From positions 1-32,147 of IMG/VR virus record IMGVR_UViG_3300037489_000088: 32,147 bases of DNA; one strand, written 5' to 3'. The position numbers were made by a program, and so were the translations under genes. The stretch is from a virus. Positions within the stretch are counted from its first letter, which is position 1, and each line of letters opens with the position of its first letter. The notes beneath the pieces are model-generated. The model saw nothing but the letters and a program-made list of their open reading frames with translations, made no database searches and was not told the DNA's origin. Positions 1,990 through 7,187 of this stretch are shown piece after piece.

Positions 1990-2037
1990 GGTGTTTGTGT
2001 TAGGGTGTTAATAAAAAGCTATAAGATGAGCTATAAA

Positions 2038-2155
2038 TAGGTTTGTATCGGTTTCTTTGGTATGGGTAAAATGGGTCTATGGTGACAGGTCCACACCAAG
2101 ATGCACTCTGCATCCCTTACTACCATTGATTTGTAAGAATTTCACCGATAACCTT
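2038..2155. ncRNA. Highly foldable non-coding region (candidate structured RNA)
   Basis: This gap between two minus-strand genes can fold into nested helices. A closing stem pairs TATCGGT (2046-2052) with ACCGATA (2144-2150), a middle stem pairs ATGGT (2079-2083) with ACCAT (2122-2126), and a hairpin pairs GATGCA (2100-2105) with TGCATC (2109-2114) around a 3-nt loop. GGTG (2081-2084) with CACC (2094-2097) is a competing stem. The base composition is more GC-rich than the flanks. A match to the -7 box TAGGTTTG (2038-2045) lies on the plus strand. The strand cannot be decided; it may be a leader RNA, a free RNA or a DNA-level structure. Confidence 0.35.
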
Positions 2156-2185
2156 GTCAACCCTGCTAACCTAGTAAGTCAACCC

Positions 2186-2227
2186 AAAAAAAAGAAGACA
2201 AGTATAGGAATTAACCCATACTTGTCT
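2186..2227 (-). terminator. Rho-independent terminator
   Basis: Read on the minus strand, a 13-bp stem (2196-2208 with 2215-2227; loop of six, AATT-rich) is followed by TTCTTTTTTTT. One pair is G-U only in the minus-strand RNA and A-C in the plus-strand RNA, which supports use on the minus strand. It lies eight bases after the stop of the gene at 2235-2582 and ends that transcript. Confidence 0.9.
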
Positions 2228-2234
2228 ATTACTT

Positions 2235-2582
2235 TTACTGTGCTTGTTCAGCAGCAGCTAATAAAGCAGCAATATCGCTTGCAGATGCAGCTTCTACTTT
2301 CTCGAATTCTACAGAATCCTTTTCTACTTCAAAGAAGTATGCTGGTTTTCCAGTTGTAGAATCTTCTGCAGATAAAGCAGTCATGTGAAGTGTTACTTCA
2401 TCACCTTCTGCACATGAAGATTTAGCATCTCCATCTTTATTAACAGTAGTTCTGTTAGCCAAAACAACTTGACCTTTTAATGGTCCATCAGCAATAGTTG
2501 CTCTGTGTAATTCACTTTTCCCCCCATTAGACTTGTTAGTCGTTTTTAAGTTTGGTGTATCAATTTTAGCTCGCATTTTCAT
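2235..2582 (-). CDS. Small acidic hypothetical protein
   Basis: A 115-aa protein of unknown function. The first 80 residues look like beta strands with turns (ADGPLKGQVVLANRT and EGDEVTLHMTA), compatible with a small beta-barrel. The C-terminus is helical, alanine-rich and acidic (from about residue 90). A beta domain with an acidic tail recalls single-stranded-DNA-binding proteins, but no binding motif can be pointed to, so this is only a suggestion. It stands alone: a hairpin precedes it (about 2657-2692) and a strong terminator follows it. Confidence 0.7.
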   Translation of the reverse strand: MKMRAKIDTPNLKTTNKSNGGKSELHRATIADGPLKGQVVLANRTTVNKDGDAKSSCAEGDEVTLHMTALSAEDSTTGKPAYFFEVEKDSVEFEKVEAASASDIAALLAAAEQAQ

Positions 2583-2656
2583 AATAATAATATGTTTTAT
2601 AAGTATATGACATTATTGTCAAGAATTAGTAAGGGTATTGAGCTAACTGAAATCAG

Positions 2657-2692
2657 TAATTAAACAACCCCAGCCTTGAAACAGAGGTTGCT
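2657..2692 (-). terminator. Possible weak terminator hairpin
   Basis: On the minus strand GCAACC pairs with GGTTGT across a loop of about 16 nt, followed by a T/A-rich run (TTTAATTA). It directly follows the gene ending at 2698. The stem is short and the T run poor, so it could equally be an RNA processing or stability element. Confidence 0.4.
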
Positions 2693-2697
2693 ATTTA

Positions 2698-2904
2698 TTA
2701 CCCTTTTGGTTTGTATTCATTTCTAGGTTTTGCATCAGGCTCTTTACTTCCTAATCTACTTACTCCTAGTATCAACAATATCCCTACTATTACTTCTGCT
2801 AACAAATCTGTTGGCATCATATACAATAGATATACTATCAAATTGAATACTGCAATGATTACTACCACTGCTGTTACTATTGTTATTACTTTATACTGTT
2901 TCAT
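2698..2904 (-). CDS. Small two-TM membrane protein
   Basis: A 68-aa protein with two hydrophobic helices (about residues 6-28 and 33-48) joined by a short PTD turn, then a basic, proline-rich cytoplasmic-type tail (KEPDAKPRNEYKPKG). Topology predicts an inner-membrane hairpin with both ends inside. It is the last of three small genes (3167 to 2698), 34 bases after the preceding tiny ORF. Function unknown; an envelope-directed early function is plausible but not shown. Confidence 0.65.
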   Translation of the reverse strand: MKQYKVITIVTAVVVIIAVFNLIVYLLYMMPTDLLAEVIVGILLILGVSRLGSKEPDAKPRNEYKPKG

Positions 2905-2938
2905 AAGATTGTGTATTAAAAGGGTTGTTACACCCTTA

Positions 2939-3052
2939 TTAGTTACTTAGCACAGTAGCTTCTATGAGCCACCCTGCAATGATGGATGCCTTCATCTCTT
3001 TAGAGATAGCTTTATCCTTAAGCTGTTTAACATGTGCCATAAACGTTTCCAT
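2939..3052 (-). CDS. Micro-protein (37 aa)
   Basis: A 37-codon ORF starting METFMAHVKQ. It is predicted to be a single amphipathic helix with lysines on one side, ending AGWLIEATVLSN. Its start codon follows the stop codon of the neighbouring micro-ORF (3054-3167) after a single base, the arrangement expected for translational coupling. It is too short for family recognition. The tight tandem placement upstream of the membrane gene at 2698-2904 is the main evidence that it is translated. Confidence 0.5.
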   Translation of the reverse strand: METFMAHVKQLKDKAISKEMKASIIAGWLIEATVLSN

Positions 3053-3053
3053 A

Positions 3054-3167
3054 CTATGAGTATTGTGCGGTTAAGGCGTTATGTTGAATTGCAAGCTGGT
3101 TTAATACAAACTTGTCAAATTCTTCTGAGTTCTCAGATGCTGAGAGTATCAATGCATTCTTTTTCAT
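3054..3167 (-). CDS. Micro-protein (37 aa), first gene of the leftward cluster
   Basis: A 37-codon ORF starting MKKNALILSA, then an acidic stretch (ENSEEFDKF) and a short helix. It is the first minus-strand ORF after the control region, and it ends one base before the next micro-ORF starts. A short inverted repeat (GATAGT/ACTATC, 3184-3201) lies just upstream in what would be its leader. Function unknown. Confidence 0.45.
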   Translation of the reverse strand: MKKNALILSASENSEEFDKFVLNQLAIQHNALTAQYS

Positions 3168-3410
3168 ATTGTGTAGTATTAGATGATAGTTGAATTACTA
3201 TCAACAATTAGTTAGGGTTTTGAGTTGAACAAAGGTGAAGAATAAACATATTATATTTTGTCGCCAGAAATTTCATCTCTTATATCAACCCGGGGGGTAG
3301 GTTTTTGTTCCGGAATTTGTGGGGGTATTTGTGCATACTAGTTTATATATCCGCTATTTTTTAAAAATTTCCGCCTCCCTTTTTAGAAACCTGATCCAAA
3401 AAATTTTTCA

Positions 3411-3451
3411 AAAAAAAAATTGAGCCGATTAAAGAAATTATTTGGCTCAAT
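3411..3451 (-). terminator. Minus-strand terminator (distal of a tandem pair)
   Basis: On the minus strand ATTGAGCC pairs with GGCTCAAT (8 bp, loop of 17) and is followed by a run of about ten T. The run lies only on the minus-strand 3' side, so it should stop leftward transcription. Confidence 0.7.
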
Positions 3452-3480
3452 AAAAAACCTCATATACATACAATATGAGG
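3452..3480 (-). terminator. Minus-strand terminator (proximal of a tandem pair)
   Basis: A perfect 8-bp stem (CCTCATAT at 3458-3465 with ATATGAGG at 3473-3480, loop of seven) is followed on the minus strand by TTTTTT. It directly precedes a second terminator, giving a double stop for leftward transcription. Confidence 0.75.
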
Positions 3481-3570
3481 CTACAGGAATATCTCCAAAA
3501 GAAAAAAAGAACCAAAAAAAGAAAACGTTGCTACTCAACGAGTCAAAGGTTCTGCATTAATAAATAATAC
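3452..3570 (-). ncRNA. Predicted small RNA between promoter and tandem terminators
   Basis: A minus-strand promoter with a full TAnnTTTG box (3575-3582) would start transcription near 3570. The first of two strong minus-strand terminators ends near 3452, defining a transcript of roughly 115-120 nt. It contains only a nine-codon ORF, so it is probably non-coding. An internal 5-bp hairpin (CGTTG/CAACG, 3525-3539) and U-rich single-stranded stretches are visible. No known RNA family is recognised. It could be a regulatory RNA or the attenuated leader of the leftward cluster. Confidence 0.45.
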
Positions 3571-3574
3571 ATCA

Positions 3575-3606
3575 CAAAGATACAGGGTAAAAATGACAAA
3601 TGCAAA
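3575..3606 (-). promoter_or_regulatory. Minus-strand Bacteroidota-type promoter
   Basis: Read leftward, TTTG (3606-3603) and the -7 box TATCTTTG (3582-3575) are 20 bases apart. This matches the TTTG / TAnnTTTG arrangement of the primary sigma factor of Bacteroidota. It is the best two-part match seen on the minus strand. Confidence 0.6.
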
Positions 3607-3733
3607 TGAAAAAGGGAATTAGGGCTAGTTTATAATTATTCTAAATAGTGAAACTCTTATCTGTAATCATTCTAAATAAGAAACTAATTTCAAATAAACA
3701 GCTATAGAATGTTATATATTTCAATTAATTATG

Positions 3734-3741
3734 TAACTTTG
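3734..3741 (+). promoter_or_regulatory. Promoter -7 box opening the rightward block
   Basis: TAACTTTG matches TAnnTTTG exactly and lies 41 bases before the first rightward ORF (3783), predicting a leader of about 35 nt. No clear TTG element is seen 17-23 bases upstream. Confidence 0.55.
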
Positions 3742-3782
3742 TTCAGAAATAAATGAATAAGTAAATTCAAAACAGAAAGAAT

Positions 3783-3935
3783 ATGAAGACACCAAGCAAG
3801 AAGTCTAGGTACAAGAAAACCAAGCATGGGCACAAGCTCACATTCAGGTCAATTAGACAAGGAGAATCCAAAAAGAAGTTCTTAAAGGAAGCCAAGAGAT
3901 TTATTAATGTAAATCTAAAGTCATGCTCCAGATAG
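3783..3935 (+). CDS. Small, very basic protein (50 aa)
   Basis: A 50-codon ORF beginning MKTPSKKSRY with about twenty Lys/Arg residues, so strongly positively charged and likely to bind nucleic acid or an acidic partner. It lies just after the first rightward promoter and its 3' end overlaps the next gene (3923) by 13 bases, which suggests translational coupling. No family is recognised. Confidence 0.6.
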   Translation: MKTPSKKSRYKKTKHGHKLTFRSIRQGESKKKFLKEAKRFINVNLKSCSR

Positions 3936-4201
3936 AAGAGATAATAGATTATATCCAATACCTCAGAAGAGAAATTCCAAAAGAACCTCAATGTGCAGGA
4001 GTATTTATGTTACTTGCAATGAGATTTAGAGATGCTGAATGTTACTATAACAGTGACCACATCATTACAAAGATTGGAGTACATTGTTACGACTGGAATG
4101 GACTAGTGATAGACAAGAAGGGATATACCCCAATGGAAAGAGATTATGGTGATCCATGGATGGTTGCCCATTACAATATACTAAGTAAAAACGAAAAATA
4201 G
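3923..4201 (+). CDS. Small hypothetical protein
   Basis: A 92-aa protein of unknown function. The first half is helical (EEIIDYIQYLRREI), and the second half is rich in aromatic residues and ends in a strand-and-turn region (GDPWMVAHYNIL). No motif or membrane segment is visible. Its start overlaps the end of the preceding basic protein gene and it lies at the head of the packaging operon, where crAss-like phages typically carry several uncharacterised small genes. Confidence 0.65.
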   Translation: MLQIEEIIDYIQYLRREIPKEPQCAGVFMLLAMRFRDAECYYNSDHIITKIGVHCYDWNGLVIDKKGYTPMERDYGDPWMVAHYNILSKNEK

Positions 4202-4247
4202 AATGATTGCCTCATTATTACCATGGGGTATTTAACAAACCAAAGAA

Positions 4248-4598
4248 ATGGAAATTATACAAAAAGGAATAAAAGCAGAGGGGAATTATCATATCCTACA
4301 TCTGACTATTATAAATCCCTTTTTACCTAAGCCATTAACGACAAAGGAAATTGCATTCCTTGCAGCATTTCTTGAAATAGAAGGAGAGTTAGTTGAAGAT
4401 GACAGATTTAACACTGTAGTTAGGAAGAAGGTGATGGAGAAGCTGGGATTAAGTCCTGGAGGGATGAGTAACTACTTGAAAGCTCTTATTAATAAATCTA
4501 TTATAAGTAAGAATGAATACAGTGGTAGATTATCAGTACATAATGCTTTACTTCCAGGGGATAAAGCTCAAGGTTATCAATTTAAACTGATAAGATGA
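4248..4598 (+). CDS. Winged-helix-like DNA-binding protein (candidate)
   Basis: A 116-aa protein. Residues 32-92 read like a winged helix: a helix (TKEIAFLAAFLEI), then VVRKKVMEKLGLSPGGMSNYLKALINKS, where the segment after SPGG fits a recognition helix, followed by a short wing (ISKNEYSGRL). This resembles phage proteins with a replication-initiator or transcription-regulator fold. The gene overlaps its downstream neighbour by ATGA, so the two are coupled. A regulator of the late block or a packaging-associated DNA binder both fit; no direct evidence separates them. Confidence 0.6.
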   Translation: MEIIQKGIKAEGNYHILHLTIINPFLPKPLTTKEIAFLAAFLEIEGELVEDDRFNTVVRKKVMEKLGLSPGGMSNYLKALINKSIISKNEYSGRLSVHNALLPGDKAQGYQFKLIR

Positions 4599-4933
4599 GA
4601 CTTACAACTAAAGACTTAACGAAAGAGTTTTATGATATGGTAAAAGAACATTACCCTGACATTGACTTGCAAGAGATGCGAGATATTGTAACAGCCCCAT
4701 GGAAGTATGCTAGAGAGCAGATTGAGAAAGGTGAGTTACCTGTATCAGTAAGGTTTAAGTATTTTGGTAAATTTTATACTTCAAAAAGATTTGTACAATC
4801 TGGATTAAATTCTATAAAGAAAAGATTTGATAAAGGGTATATGGATCATGATGAGTATTTTAGAATGAAGAAAAAATTTGATTTATTTTTAGAGCAAGAT
4901 GAGAATACTAAAGAACAAAAATTTGACACTTAA
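4595..4933 (+). CDS. Conserved-type small phage protein
   Basis: A 112-aa helical protein with the block VRFKYFGKFY near residues 52-61, which resembles small proteins found near packaging genes in many phages, followed by two charged helices. The function of that type is not known to me. The start overlaps the previous stop (ATGA) and the end overlaps the next gene by 35 bases, so it belongs to a tightly coupled run. Confidence 0.65.
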   Translation: MRLTTKDLTKEFYDMVKEHYPDIDLQEMRDIVTAPWKYAREQIEKGELPVSVRFKYFGKFYTSKRFVQSGLNSIKKRFDKGYMDHDEYFRMKKKFDLFLEQDENTKEQKFDT

Positions 4934-5273
4934 AAATGCTTGGTATTATAATCAAGGTAATTTTAGGTACTGGGCATACTACAATGCCAGTTGGTTATTA
5001 AGGAAGCATATTTGTGAACAGATAGCCTATAGAATAAATTCTATGAATAAAGAGTGCTATGATACTGGAGCTTGCATAAAATGTGGATGTGCCACTATAC
5101 AATTACAGATGTGTGACAAGCCTTGTGAAGGATTATGCTACCCAAGAATGGCTTCCAAATTTGAATGGGAGCTAATGCAAAATCCAAAATACCAAGGTGT
5201 AGCATGGAAAGTAGATAATAAATTATGCAGGTGGAGAATAAATAGAGACAAAGAAAAATTTGAAAGAAGATGA
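4899..5273 (+). CDS. Zinc-cluster hypothetical protein
   Basis: A 124-aa protein with a dense cysteine cluster in the middle: C59xxCxC64, then C72xxxC76xxxC80. This is a plausible site for one or two zinc ions. Flanking regions are aromatic and basic (WxYYN and WRINRDKEKFERR). The ATG at 4899 lies inside the preceding gene; a TTG at 4923 is the only obvious later alternative. The role is unknown; position suggests an accessory packaging or virion assembly function. Confidence 0.65.
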   Translation: MRILKNKNLTLKNAWYYNQGNFRYWAYYNASWLLRKHICEQIAYRINSMNKECYDTGACIKCGCATIQLQMCDKPCEGLCYPRMASKFEWELMQNPKYQGVAWKVDNKLCRWRINRDKEKFERR

Positions 5274-5575
5274 GTTATTTTGAAAAACAATCATATAAAG
5301 CTACTACGGTAGTAGGAACTAAAGCTAAAGCGGTATTTAAGGCTAAAGATGATATACCAAAGATTATGGCGTTGCAATCAAGTTGTGGATGCACTACACC
5401 AGTATATAATCCTGGAACAAAAGAGTTAACAGTTATATACACACCAAAAGCTATACCAAGACATCTAATGCCAGTGCCAGGGTTCACAAAAGTAAGACAA
5501 ACTGTATCAGTGATTTACAGTAACACCCATAGTGAAATATTACAATTTGAAATAGAAACACATAAAAAGAAATGA
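5270..5575 (+). CDS. DUF1573-like protein
   Basis: A 101-aa single-domain protein with the hallmark S-S-C-G-C-T-T-P block at residues 37-44, followed by a strand pattern ending in a YTP segment, as in the Ig-like DUF1573 family common in Bacteroidota. Cellular members are usually exported. This one has no signal peptide, so it should stay in the cytoplasm or in the virion. It is joined to both neighbours by ATGA overlaps. The two cysteines could bind metal or form a disulfide. It may be a beta-sandwich virion or adhesion module; the role is not established. Confidence 0.7.
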   Translation: MSYFEKQSYKATTVVGTKAKAVFKAKDDIPKIMALQSSCGCTTPVYNPGTKELTVIYTPKAIPRHLMPVPGFTKVRQTVSVIYSNTHSEILQFEIETHKKK

Positions 5576-6183
5576 GTAAACATACAAAAGTAAGAAATTA
5601 CACAGACAGTGAGTTAATTGAGCAGATGATGAGTTTGCCAAGTTATTTATGCATACCGGAAGGATATCATATAATTGCAGTAAGGAGTTCAGAAGATGAT
5701 CCAGATAAATTTGATGACAAGATGTACCTGTTTAAAGGGACAGAATGTATATCAGTGTTTACTTGTACTACAAACACAGGTACTTATGGATTATTGAATT
5801 TTAGAAAATGGTCTAAGCTTGGAGCCGCAGTTATTAAATCAAATGAGATATATTATTTTGCATTTGAAAAATCAGATGGTAAAAGAGTAAGACACCACAA
5901 AGGGAAAATGCCTTGTTTAAGACAAACAGGAGATATGCTATACTACAGAGACAGAAACCTTGATAATAAGGTTGATGAAGAAGGTAGAGTTTATAAAGGA
6001 AACTATTCTACAAATATCCATACAAACTCTTATAAATCTAAAACAGGAATTAAAAGTTGGTCAATTAAGATGTGGTCTGTAGGATGTATTGTTTTAAATA
6101 ACATAGGGGATTACTATTCAAAATTATTAAAAAGAATACCATTAAAAAGAAAAGTTACCTTTACGTTACTAAAAGAATTTTAA
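5572..6183 (+). CDS. Candidate cysteine murein peptidase / L,D-transpeptidase-like enzyme
   Basis: A 203-aa protein. The C-terminal half has NIH (H150), then WSVGC (C172) 22 residues later and a hydrophobic strand. This resembles the catalytic His and S-x-G-C motifs of YkuD-type L,D-transpeptidases and of the related phage family with 'NIH ... WSxGC'. Such enzymes act on peptide crosslinks of peptidoglycan, so this could be the endolysin or a virion-associated lysin. There is no signal peptide; the N-terminal 100 residues are unassigned. The match rests on a few residues, so the enzyme call is tentative. Confidence 0.5.
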   Translation: MSKHTKVRNYTDSELIEQMMSLPSYLCIPEGYHIIAVRSSEDDPDKFDDKMYLFKGTECISVFTCTTNTGTYGLLNFRKWSKLGAAVIKSNEIYYFAFEKSDGKRVRHHKGKMPCLRQTGDMLYYRDRNLDNKVDEEGRVYKGNYSTNIHTNSYKSKTGIKSWSIKMWSVGCIVLNNIGDYYSKLLKRIPLKRKVTFTLLKEF

Positions 6184-6767: not shown

Positions 6768-7187
6768 ATGAATTGGAACTATAAAGGAAGAGAAATTACA
6801 GAAGTTAATATGCTACCTGAGAATGCTGTAGGATTTATATATCTCATAGAATTTTCAAATGGTAGAAAATATATAGGCAAGAAAGCATTATTCCATAAAA
6901 GAACTAGAAAACCTCTCAAGGGATACAAACGTAAGCGTGTTGATTATGTAGAGAGTGATTGGAAAAAATACAATGGTTCAATTAAAAATGAGCAATTTCA
7001 TGAGGATTTTAACTCAAACAGAATCCTTATCATAAACAAAACAATCTTAAAAGTGTGTATGGACAAATGGGGCATGACATATTATGAAACTAAATACCAG
7101 TTTGAAACAGATTGTCTTGTAGACCAATGTTACTACAATCAAAATATTCTAGGAAAATTTTACAGAAAGAAAATTAAAACTGAATAA
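6768..7187 (+). CDS. GIY-YIG-type endonuclease
   Basis: A 139-aa protein. Residues 22-37 give G-F-I-Y ... Y-I-G, the two signature strands of the GIY-YIG nuclease domain. Basic residues follow, including a candidate catalytic arginine in KRTRK, then a W..YNGS block, a late acidic residue (YQFETD) and YYNQNILGKF at the end. Phages carry stand-alone enzymes of this type that nick DNA or act as homing endonucleases. An upstream in-frame ATG at 6732 exists, but 6768 is preferred because it avoids overlap with the previous gene and fits the intragenic promoter. Mobility or a role in packaging are both possible. Confidence 0.75.
   Translation: MNWNYKGREITEVNMLPENAVGFIYLIEFSNGRKYIGKKALFHKRTRKPLKGYKRKRVDYVESDWKKYNGSIKNEQFHEDFNSNRILIINKTILKVCMDKWGMTYYETKYQFETDCLVDQCYYNQNILGKFYRKKIKTE

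Follow-up and report, generated by a model that had tools for sequence, protein, structure and literature searches.

A conserved RNA gene with a homopyrimidine mirror repeat in phages related to the crAss-like Flavobacterium phages

The stretch of viral DNA analysed here (the window, 32,147 nucleotides, IMG/VR record IMGVR_UViG_3300037489_000088) very probably carries on its minus strand a real, conserved and apparently undescribed phage RNA gene. The unit of promoter, leader and homopyrimidine mirror repeat is common to 24 distinct loci, the cultured phage FpV4 among them, and the pattern matches Fpv1 and Fpv20 too. By comparison of these sequences the RNA gene is kept across a whole group of Bacteroidota viruses, and the same comparison supports its promoter, the first hairpin of its leader and the two arms of its mirror, which change together. 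A conserved RNA gene is thereby added to the crAss-like relatives, and since the three cultured phages carry it, the gene is open to direct test.

Phage context and promoter of the RNA gene

The IMG/VR entry behind the window is a fragment. Its terminase is nearest to the terminases of Flavobacterium psychrophilum phages (~60% identical), with crAss-like phages next, and the window comes from a crAss-like phage, kin of the Flavobacterium phages FpV4 and Fpv1; Fpv3 is counted as a crAss-like phage (PMC10136315). To the left of ~3,200 the longer minus-strand ORFs look like early genes and to the right of ~3,900 the late genes lie on the plus strand, and the RNA locus sits between the two, in the switch region where the first-pass annotation had placed it. 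In crAss-like phages a virion polymerase serves the early genes, and the late genes probably depend on the host polymerase (PMC10136315).

Leftward genes of the window are preceded by the motif ACCC--ACT-ATT--TG (2620–2636, 3202–3218 and 3310–3326, minus strand), which recurs upstream of the early genes of relatives and possibly represents early (virion RNA polymerase) promoters; within the window alone it is no more frequent than expected by chance. Upstream of the first late gene, at ~3730–3742 (plus strand), lies TAACTTTG, with TTCTTAACTTTG at the equivalent site in relatives, and this is a probable host-type late promoter divergent from that of the RNA gene. Between these two promoters one relative (L010, ~7115–7145) has TAAATAG units in tandem, and the window has two copies of ATTCTAAATA, near 3637 and 3671; both are possible operator repeats.

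The two-part minus-strand promoter of the first-pass annotation is present as described, with a −33 box TTTG at 3606–3603 and a −7 box TATCTTTG at 3582–3575 separated by a 20-nt spacer, and we infer transcription starting near 3570 on that strand. The pattern TTTG-N19-21-TANNTTTG has one match in the window and 1.17 are expected by chance, so the match alone is no evidence and the case for the RNA gene rests on comparison with relatives. The position of the −7 box is conserved in the 24 loci, the −33 equivalent in many relatives is TTGAC or TTGA, and the family consensus, TTG-N20-TA[AC]CTTTG, is of host type. In FpV4 the −7 box reads TAACTTTG and occupies 86,199–86,206.

Conservation, leader and terminators

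The relatives first compared were taken from the equivalent divergent intergenic region of terminase-bearing phages, and pattern and protein scans enlarged the set. On the same strand these first relatives have hairpins and a stretch like TTTTCTTTTTGGTTCTTTTTCTTTT behind a promoter whose last letters are TAACTTTG or TACCTTTG. In all loci the pyrimidine strand is the sense strand and the mirror begins 83–104 nt past the start of the −7 box (57 nt in the window), with one mirror in each phage piece examined. The pattern was not found in crAss001, phi14:2, phi38:1 or six further crAss-like records, and it is absent from the genomes of some relatives (L015, L029). Among 395 Bacteroidota cellular genomes the promoter-plus-mirror pattern occurs in 17, fewer than for a reversed-pattern control; this is background level, and membership of host chromosomes was excluded. 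A nucleotide search of the segment against annotated phages gave a best match of only E ~4, nothing in Rfam reached the gathering score, the best chance matches being far lower, and no description of the gene was found in the literature searched, including a 2023 review of Crassvirales in which the words 'non-coding' and 'promoter' are both absent.

The leader of the relatives begins with a hairpin of the form NNNAG-TTTT-CTNNN (hairpin 1), which is kept through compensating changes in 19 of 21 loci and in none of 20,000 shuffles; its stems include GTAG/CTAC, CATAG/CTATG, CGAAG/CTTCG and CAGAG/CTCTG. An anchored permutation was used for this test in place of a covariance model, as sequence aligners cannot cope with so variable a leader. 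After hairpin 1 further hairpins can be seen by eye, their stems differing between members, and the fold of the leader has a mean z of −2.2 across members (range −5.9 to +0.3). Hairpin 1 opens with the same letters as the mirror arm (AGTTTTC or AAGTTTCTTTC), and both switch type together. There is no conserved small ORF, the longest closed small ORF varying freely from 6 to 48 aa, and the locus thus combines a conserved promoter and a structured predicted transcript with no conserved ORF, as is required of a non-coding RNA gene.

In the window the leader is 57 nt long against 83–104 nt in the relatives and is without the typical hairpin 1, so that the window represents a reduced member of the family. 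Its first leader hairpin in the fold is GTATTA-TTTAT-TAATGC (3554–3570, minus strand as for all features that follow). Immediately 5' of the mirror, both the terminator scan and the fold give a terminator-like hairpin CGTTG-AGTAG-CAACG (3526–3540); with CGTTGAGTAGCAACG followed by TTTTCTTTTTTT it spans 3540–3514, and TTTTCTTTTTTT doubles as a mirror arm. Downstream lie two intrinsic-terminator-like hairpins, AGCCTCATAT..ATATGAGGTT with a T-run at 3451–3482 (scan and fold) and TTGAGCC..GGCTCAA with ten T at 3410–3450 (fold), the stem TGAGCC/GGCTCA of the latter being present too in the nearest relative, L003. The scan, which gave five terminator-like sites within 2000–6000 against 1.8 expected (sd 1.5), lists 3540–3514 and 3482–3451 and misses 3450–3410, where the loop is above its limit. 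The segment 3571–3409 folds with −37.1 kcal/mol (z −4.6), a value equalled by none of 200 shuffles.

Other claims of the first-pass annotation for this interval fared variously. The stretch 3452–3606 is indeed free of genes, with no ORF of at least 60 aa. Both hairpins and T-runs of the proposed double terminator exist, but the last hairpin and T-run lie beyond 3452–3606 and there is an extra terminator-like hairpin inside it. The double terminator is not what the family conserves: a strict stem rule applied to ≤110 nt downstream finds a clear intrinsic terminator in only 6 of 21 loci. A pairing of the mirror loop with the leader GAACC was seen by eye in the window; it is not conserved and was dropped as a family feature.

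The pyrimidine mirror and paired change of its arms

The most conserved part of the RNA gene, which is absent from the first-pass description, is a homopyrimidine mirror repeat TTTTCTTTTTTT-GGTTC-TTTTTTTCTTTT at 3497–3525, with arms at 3525–3514 and 3508–3497 and the loop at 3513–3509. The mirror is perfect in the window (12+12), arms in the relatives being 7–13 nt, and has the homopyrimidine mirror symmetry and short loop expected of an H-DNA-forming repeat. It is the only mirror with arms ≥9 in the window, against 0.03 expected, and no mirror with arms ≥10 arose across 60 shuffles of the window. The loops vary (GGTTC, GGTAC, GGTCC, GGTTAC, GGGTAC, GTGTTAC) and start with GG or GT.

Read outward from the loop, the arms are T7CT4 in the window and T5CT4, T6CT4, T4CT5, T5CT3CT3, T4CT3CT3, T3CT3CT3, T4CT3CT4 and others elsewhere. 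The inner T-runs (n = 3 to 7) are equal between the two arms in 20 of 20 loci tested, and the C positions are mirrored as well (T5CT4, T4CT5, T5CT3CT3, T4CT3CT4); the outermost run is off by one T in a few loci. Inner runs are equal in all 11 distinct arm types, which one of 100,000 permutations matched and none matched with equal mirror length, figures that overstate the significance because the sequences are related. For the same reason the repeated paired changes carry more weight: both arms have changed together between sister or near relatives, as placed by the terminase tree (window 7/7 vs L003 5/5; L004 6/6 vs L005 5/5; L011 5/5 vs L017 4/4 vs L022 3/3; L031 6/6 vs FpV4 5/5). Such paired changes in close relatives constitute comparative evidence of selection for mirror symmetry.

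GGTTC mirrors also occur in unrelated viral and bacterial contigs, with equal inner runs in 97/105 and 99/119, and low-complexity DNA abounds in generic T/C mirror pairs whose loops are different; for this latter reason a special status of the GGTTC loop everywhere was dropped and the claim is confined to the phage family. Many environmental viral contigs (L083, L085, L095, L111, L117, L181 and others) have in common an AT-rich sequence with TTCTTTTTCTTTTGGTTCTTTTCTTTTTCTT and CCATTCAT repeats, which a copy in a Prochlorococcus contig (L222) resembles. In another set (L206, L225, L228, L254, L255, L263, L264, L268, L271) one flank of the GGTTC mirror is TAG-rich and the other has TGTGGAT/GTTGATAAC. 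An oriC reading, prompted by cellular-contig copies with TAG repeats and TGTGGATAA-like sequence at their flanks, was rejected since there is no dnaA, dnaN or mnmG nearby. Some cellular GGTTC mirrors adjoin integrase-like ORFs (by eye) or contig ends and thus suggest insertion sequences, of which those of the L206–L271 set are possibly the ends. In Clostridia loci (L239, L241, L276, L304 and others) an intergenic GGTTC mirror is followed by a purine arm AAAAGAAAAGAAC and repeated within the genome, and mirror and arm together would supply the three strands that an intrastrand triplex of the pyrimidine motif requires.

A possible triplex, other readings and known systems

Inverted repeats are read by protein dimers, and complements are what antisense pairing requires; a mirror whose C positions match instead fits one purine strand placed between two pyrimidine strands by Watson-Crick and Hoogsteen bonds. 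Pyrimidine-motif triplexes need a perfect mirror, C positions included (PMC4666352), and RNA is the preferred third strand (PMC4783943). We judge it an even matter whether the gene gives a discrete non-coding RNA whose pyrimidine mirror joins the purine DNA strand of its own locus in a triple helix. Host RNA polymerase with the primary sigma factor would start at the Bacteroidota-type promoter, and the leader, ~85–95 nt in general and shorter in the window, would fold into successive hairpins, followed by the homopyrimidine mirror with its short loop. One RNA arm would pair with the template purine strand by Watson-Crick bonds and the other would fold back over the loop and be Hoogsteen-bonded to the same strand, leaving the nascent RNA clamped to its DNA as a triplex-stabilised R-loop; alternatively the DNA alone would form H-DNA. 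We favour the RNA clamp since the predicted transcript is in every case the pyrimidine strand. Its likely use would be to stall or end transcription at this point, or else to provide replication, near the early/late boundary, with an RNA end or an opened stretch of DNA. The RNA should follow the host polymerase, because its promoter is host-type and the late genes are probably served by that polymerase (PMC10136315). Counting against a triplex are arms of 7–13 nt, short for H-DNA, leader folding that ranges from strong to almost nil among members, the variable loop, the reduced leader of the window and the relatives without the pattern.

In most loci the RNA gene points to the early genes, usually at the early/late divergent junction, and terminators follow it in several, as would suit a leftward early operon with a leader or attenuator whose terminators gate host RNA polymerase. 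We consider this improbable. In FpV4 the gene lies between gp72 and gp73, the latter oppositely oriented and with its stop codon 15 nt beyond the end of the mirror, and on the L031 contig the RNA gene opposes its neighbours; in both it is elsewhere in the genome, in late-gene orientation and with no early gene behind it, so that a co-oriented downstream gene is not found in all members, and neither a downstream ORF nor a terminator is conserved. These differences in place and orientation argue against a leader of the leftward micro-ORFs and, with the unit kept in 24 loci, favour the discrete RNA preferred in the first-pass annotation. The same two copies lie away from the divergent junction, which counts against a reading in which the DNA alone opens as H-DNA under negative supercoiling between divergent units, as an origin or supercoil sink, the transcript being incidental. 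The perfect homopyrimidine mirror and the junction at most loci agree with that reading, but in every locus it is the pyrimidine strand that is sense, its distance from a conserved promoter hardly varies, and compensating changes preserve hairpin 1; we regard the reading as rather unlikely.

An ordinary base-pairing sRNA seems unlikely to a similar degree. Its U-rich, single-stranded 25-nt seed would pair with A-rich leaders, those of early phage mRNAs or of the host's, and the mirror would be a by-product; the gene's own promoter, its hairpins, the U-rich single-stranded stretch toward the 3' part and the adjoining early genes are all in keeping with this. Antisense action needs complementarity and not a mirror, however, and the arms co-change including their C positions. 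Where the arms are more complex, the 11-mer TTTCTTTCTTT, a candidate purine target in trans, has 0–5 copies outside the element per whole record. That the locus is low-complexity sequence in which promoter and terminators match by accident is hardly credible. Viral contigs do often contain generic T/C mirror pairs in their low-complexity sequence, and the promoter match is at chance level, but the whole unit is kept in 24 loci with paired arm changes and the window mirror far exceeds expectation, and the comparison with relatives already contradicts this reading.

Returning to the RNA held on its own gene, we suggest tentatively, and with some doubt, that it represents a new RNA class in which a pyrimidine clamp (an RNA.DNA:RNA triplex) holds a stable R-loop, by which transcription is arrested or phage replication primed; both the triplex and this role of the gene are what we infer. 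Selection for triplexes in living cells is still debated. If true, compensatory mirror changes would allow a natural triplex element to be recognised, much as covariation reveals helices.

Among known systems, H-DNA shares the perfect homopyrimidine mirror and short loop with the phage element, but the phage mirror is a candidate triplex in a putatively transcribed gene, at a near-fixed promoter distance, with the pyrimidine strand always sense and paired arm changes. TMECO, PIT and boxC (Holder et al. 2015, PMC4666352) are likewise conserved triplex-capable motifs in prokaryotic DNA; they have three strands within one DNA strand, are G/C-rich and are dispersed in chromosomes, whereas the phage element has two pyrimidine arms only, an RNA promoter and a single copy per piece examined. 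The main text of that paper has no mention of a GGTTC loop. No purine arm lies beside the mirror in the phage loci, where the longest purine run of the leader is 4–12 nt, and they thus fall outside that class. Like ColE1 RNA II and other R-loop primers, the phage RNA would be host-transcribed and structured and could stay on its template. ColE1 RNA II uses a G-rich hybrid, whereas the pyrimidine-rich phage RNA would depend on the triplex clamp, its origin function being hypothetical. ENE elements (U-A.U triple-helix RNAs) resemble the phage RNA in having two U-rich segments able to clamp a purine strand. Their target is poly(A) RNA; the target strand of the phage RNA, unlike theirs, should carry G because the C positions are mirrored, and its own purine strand does carry G.
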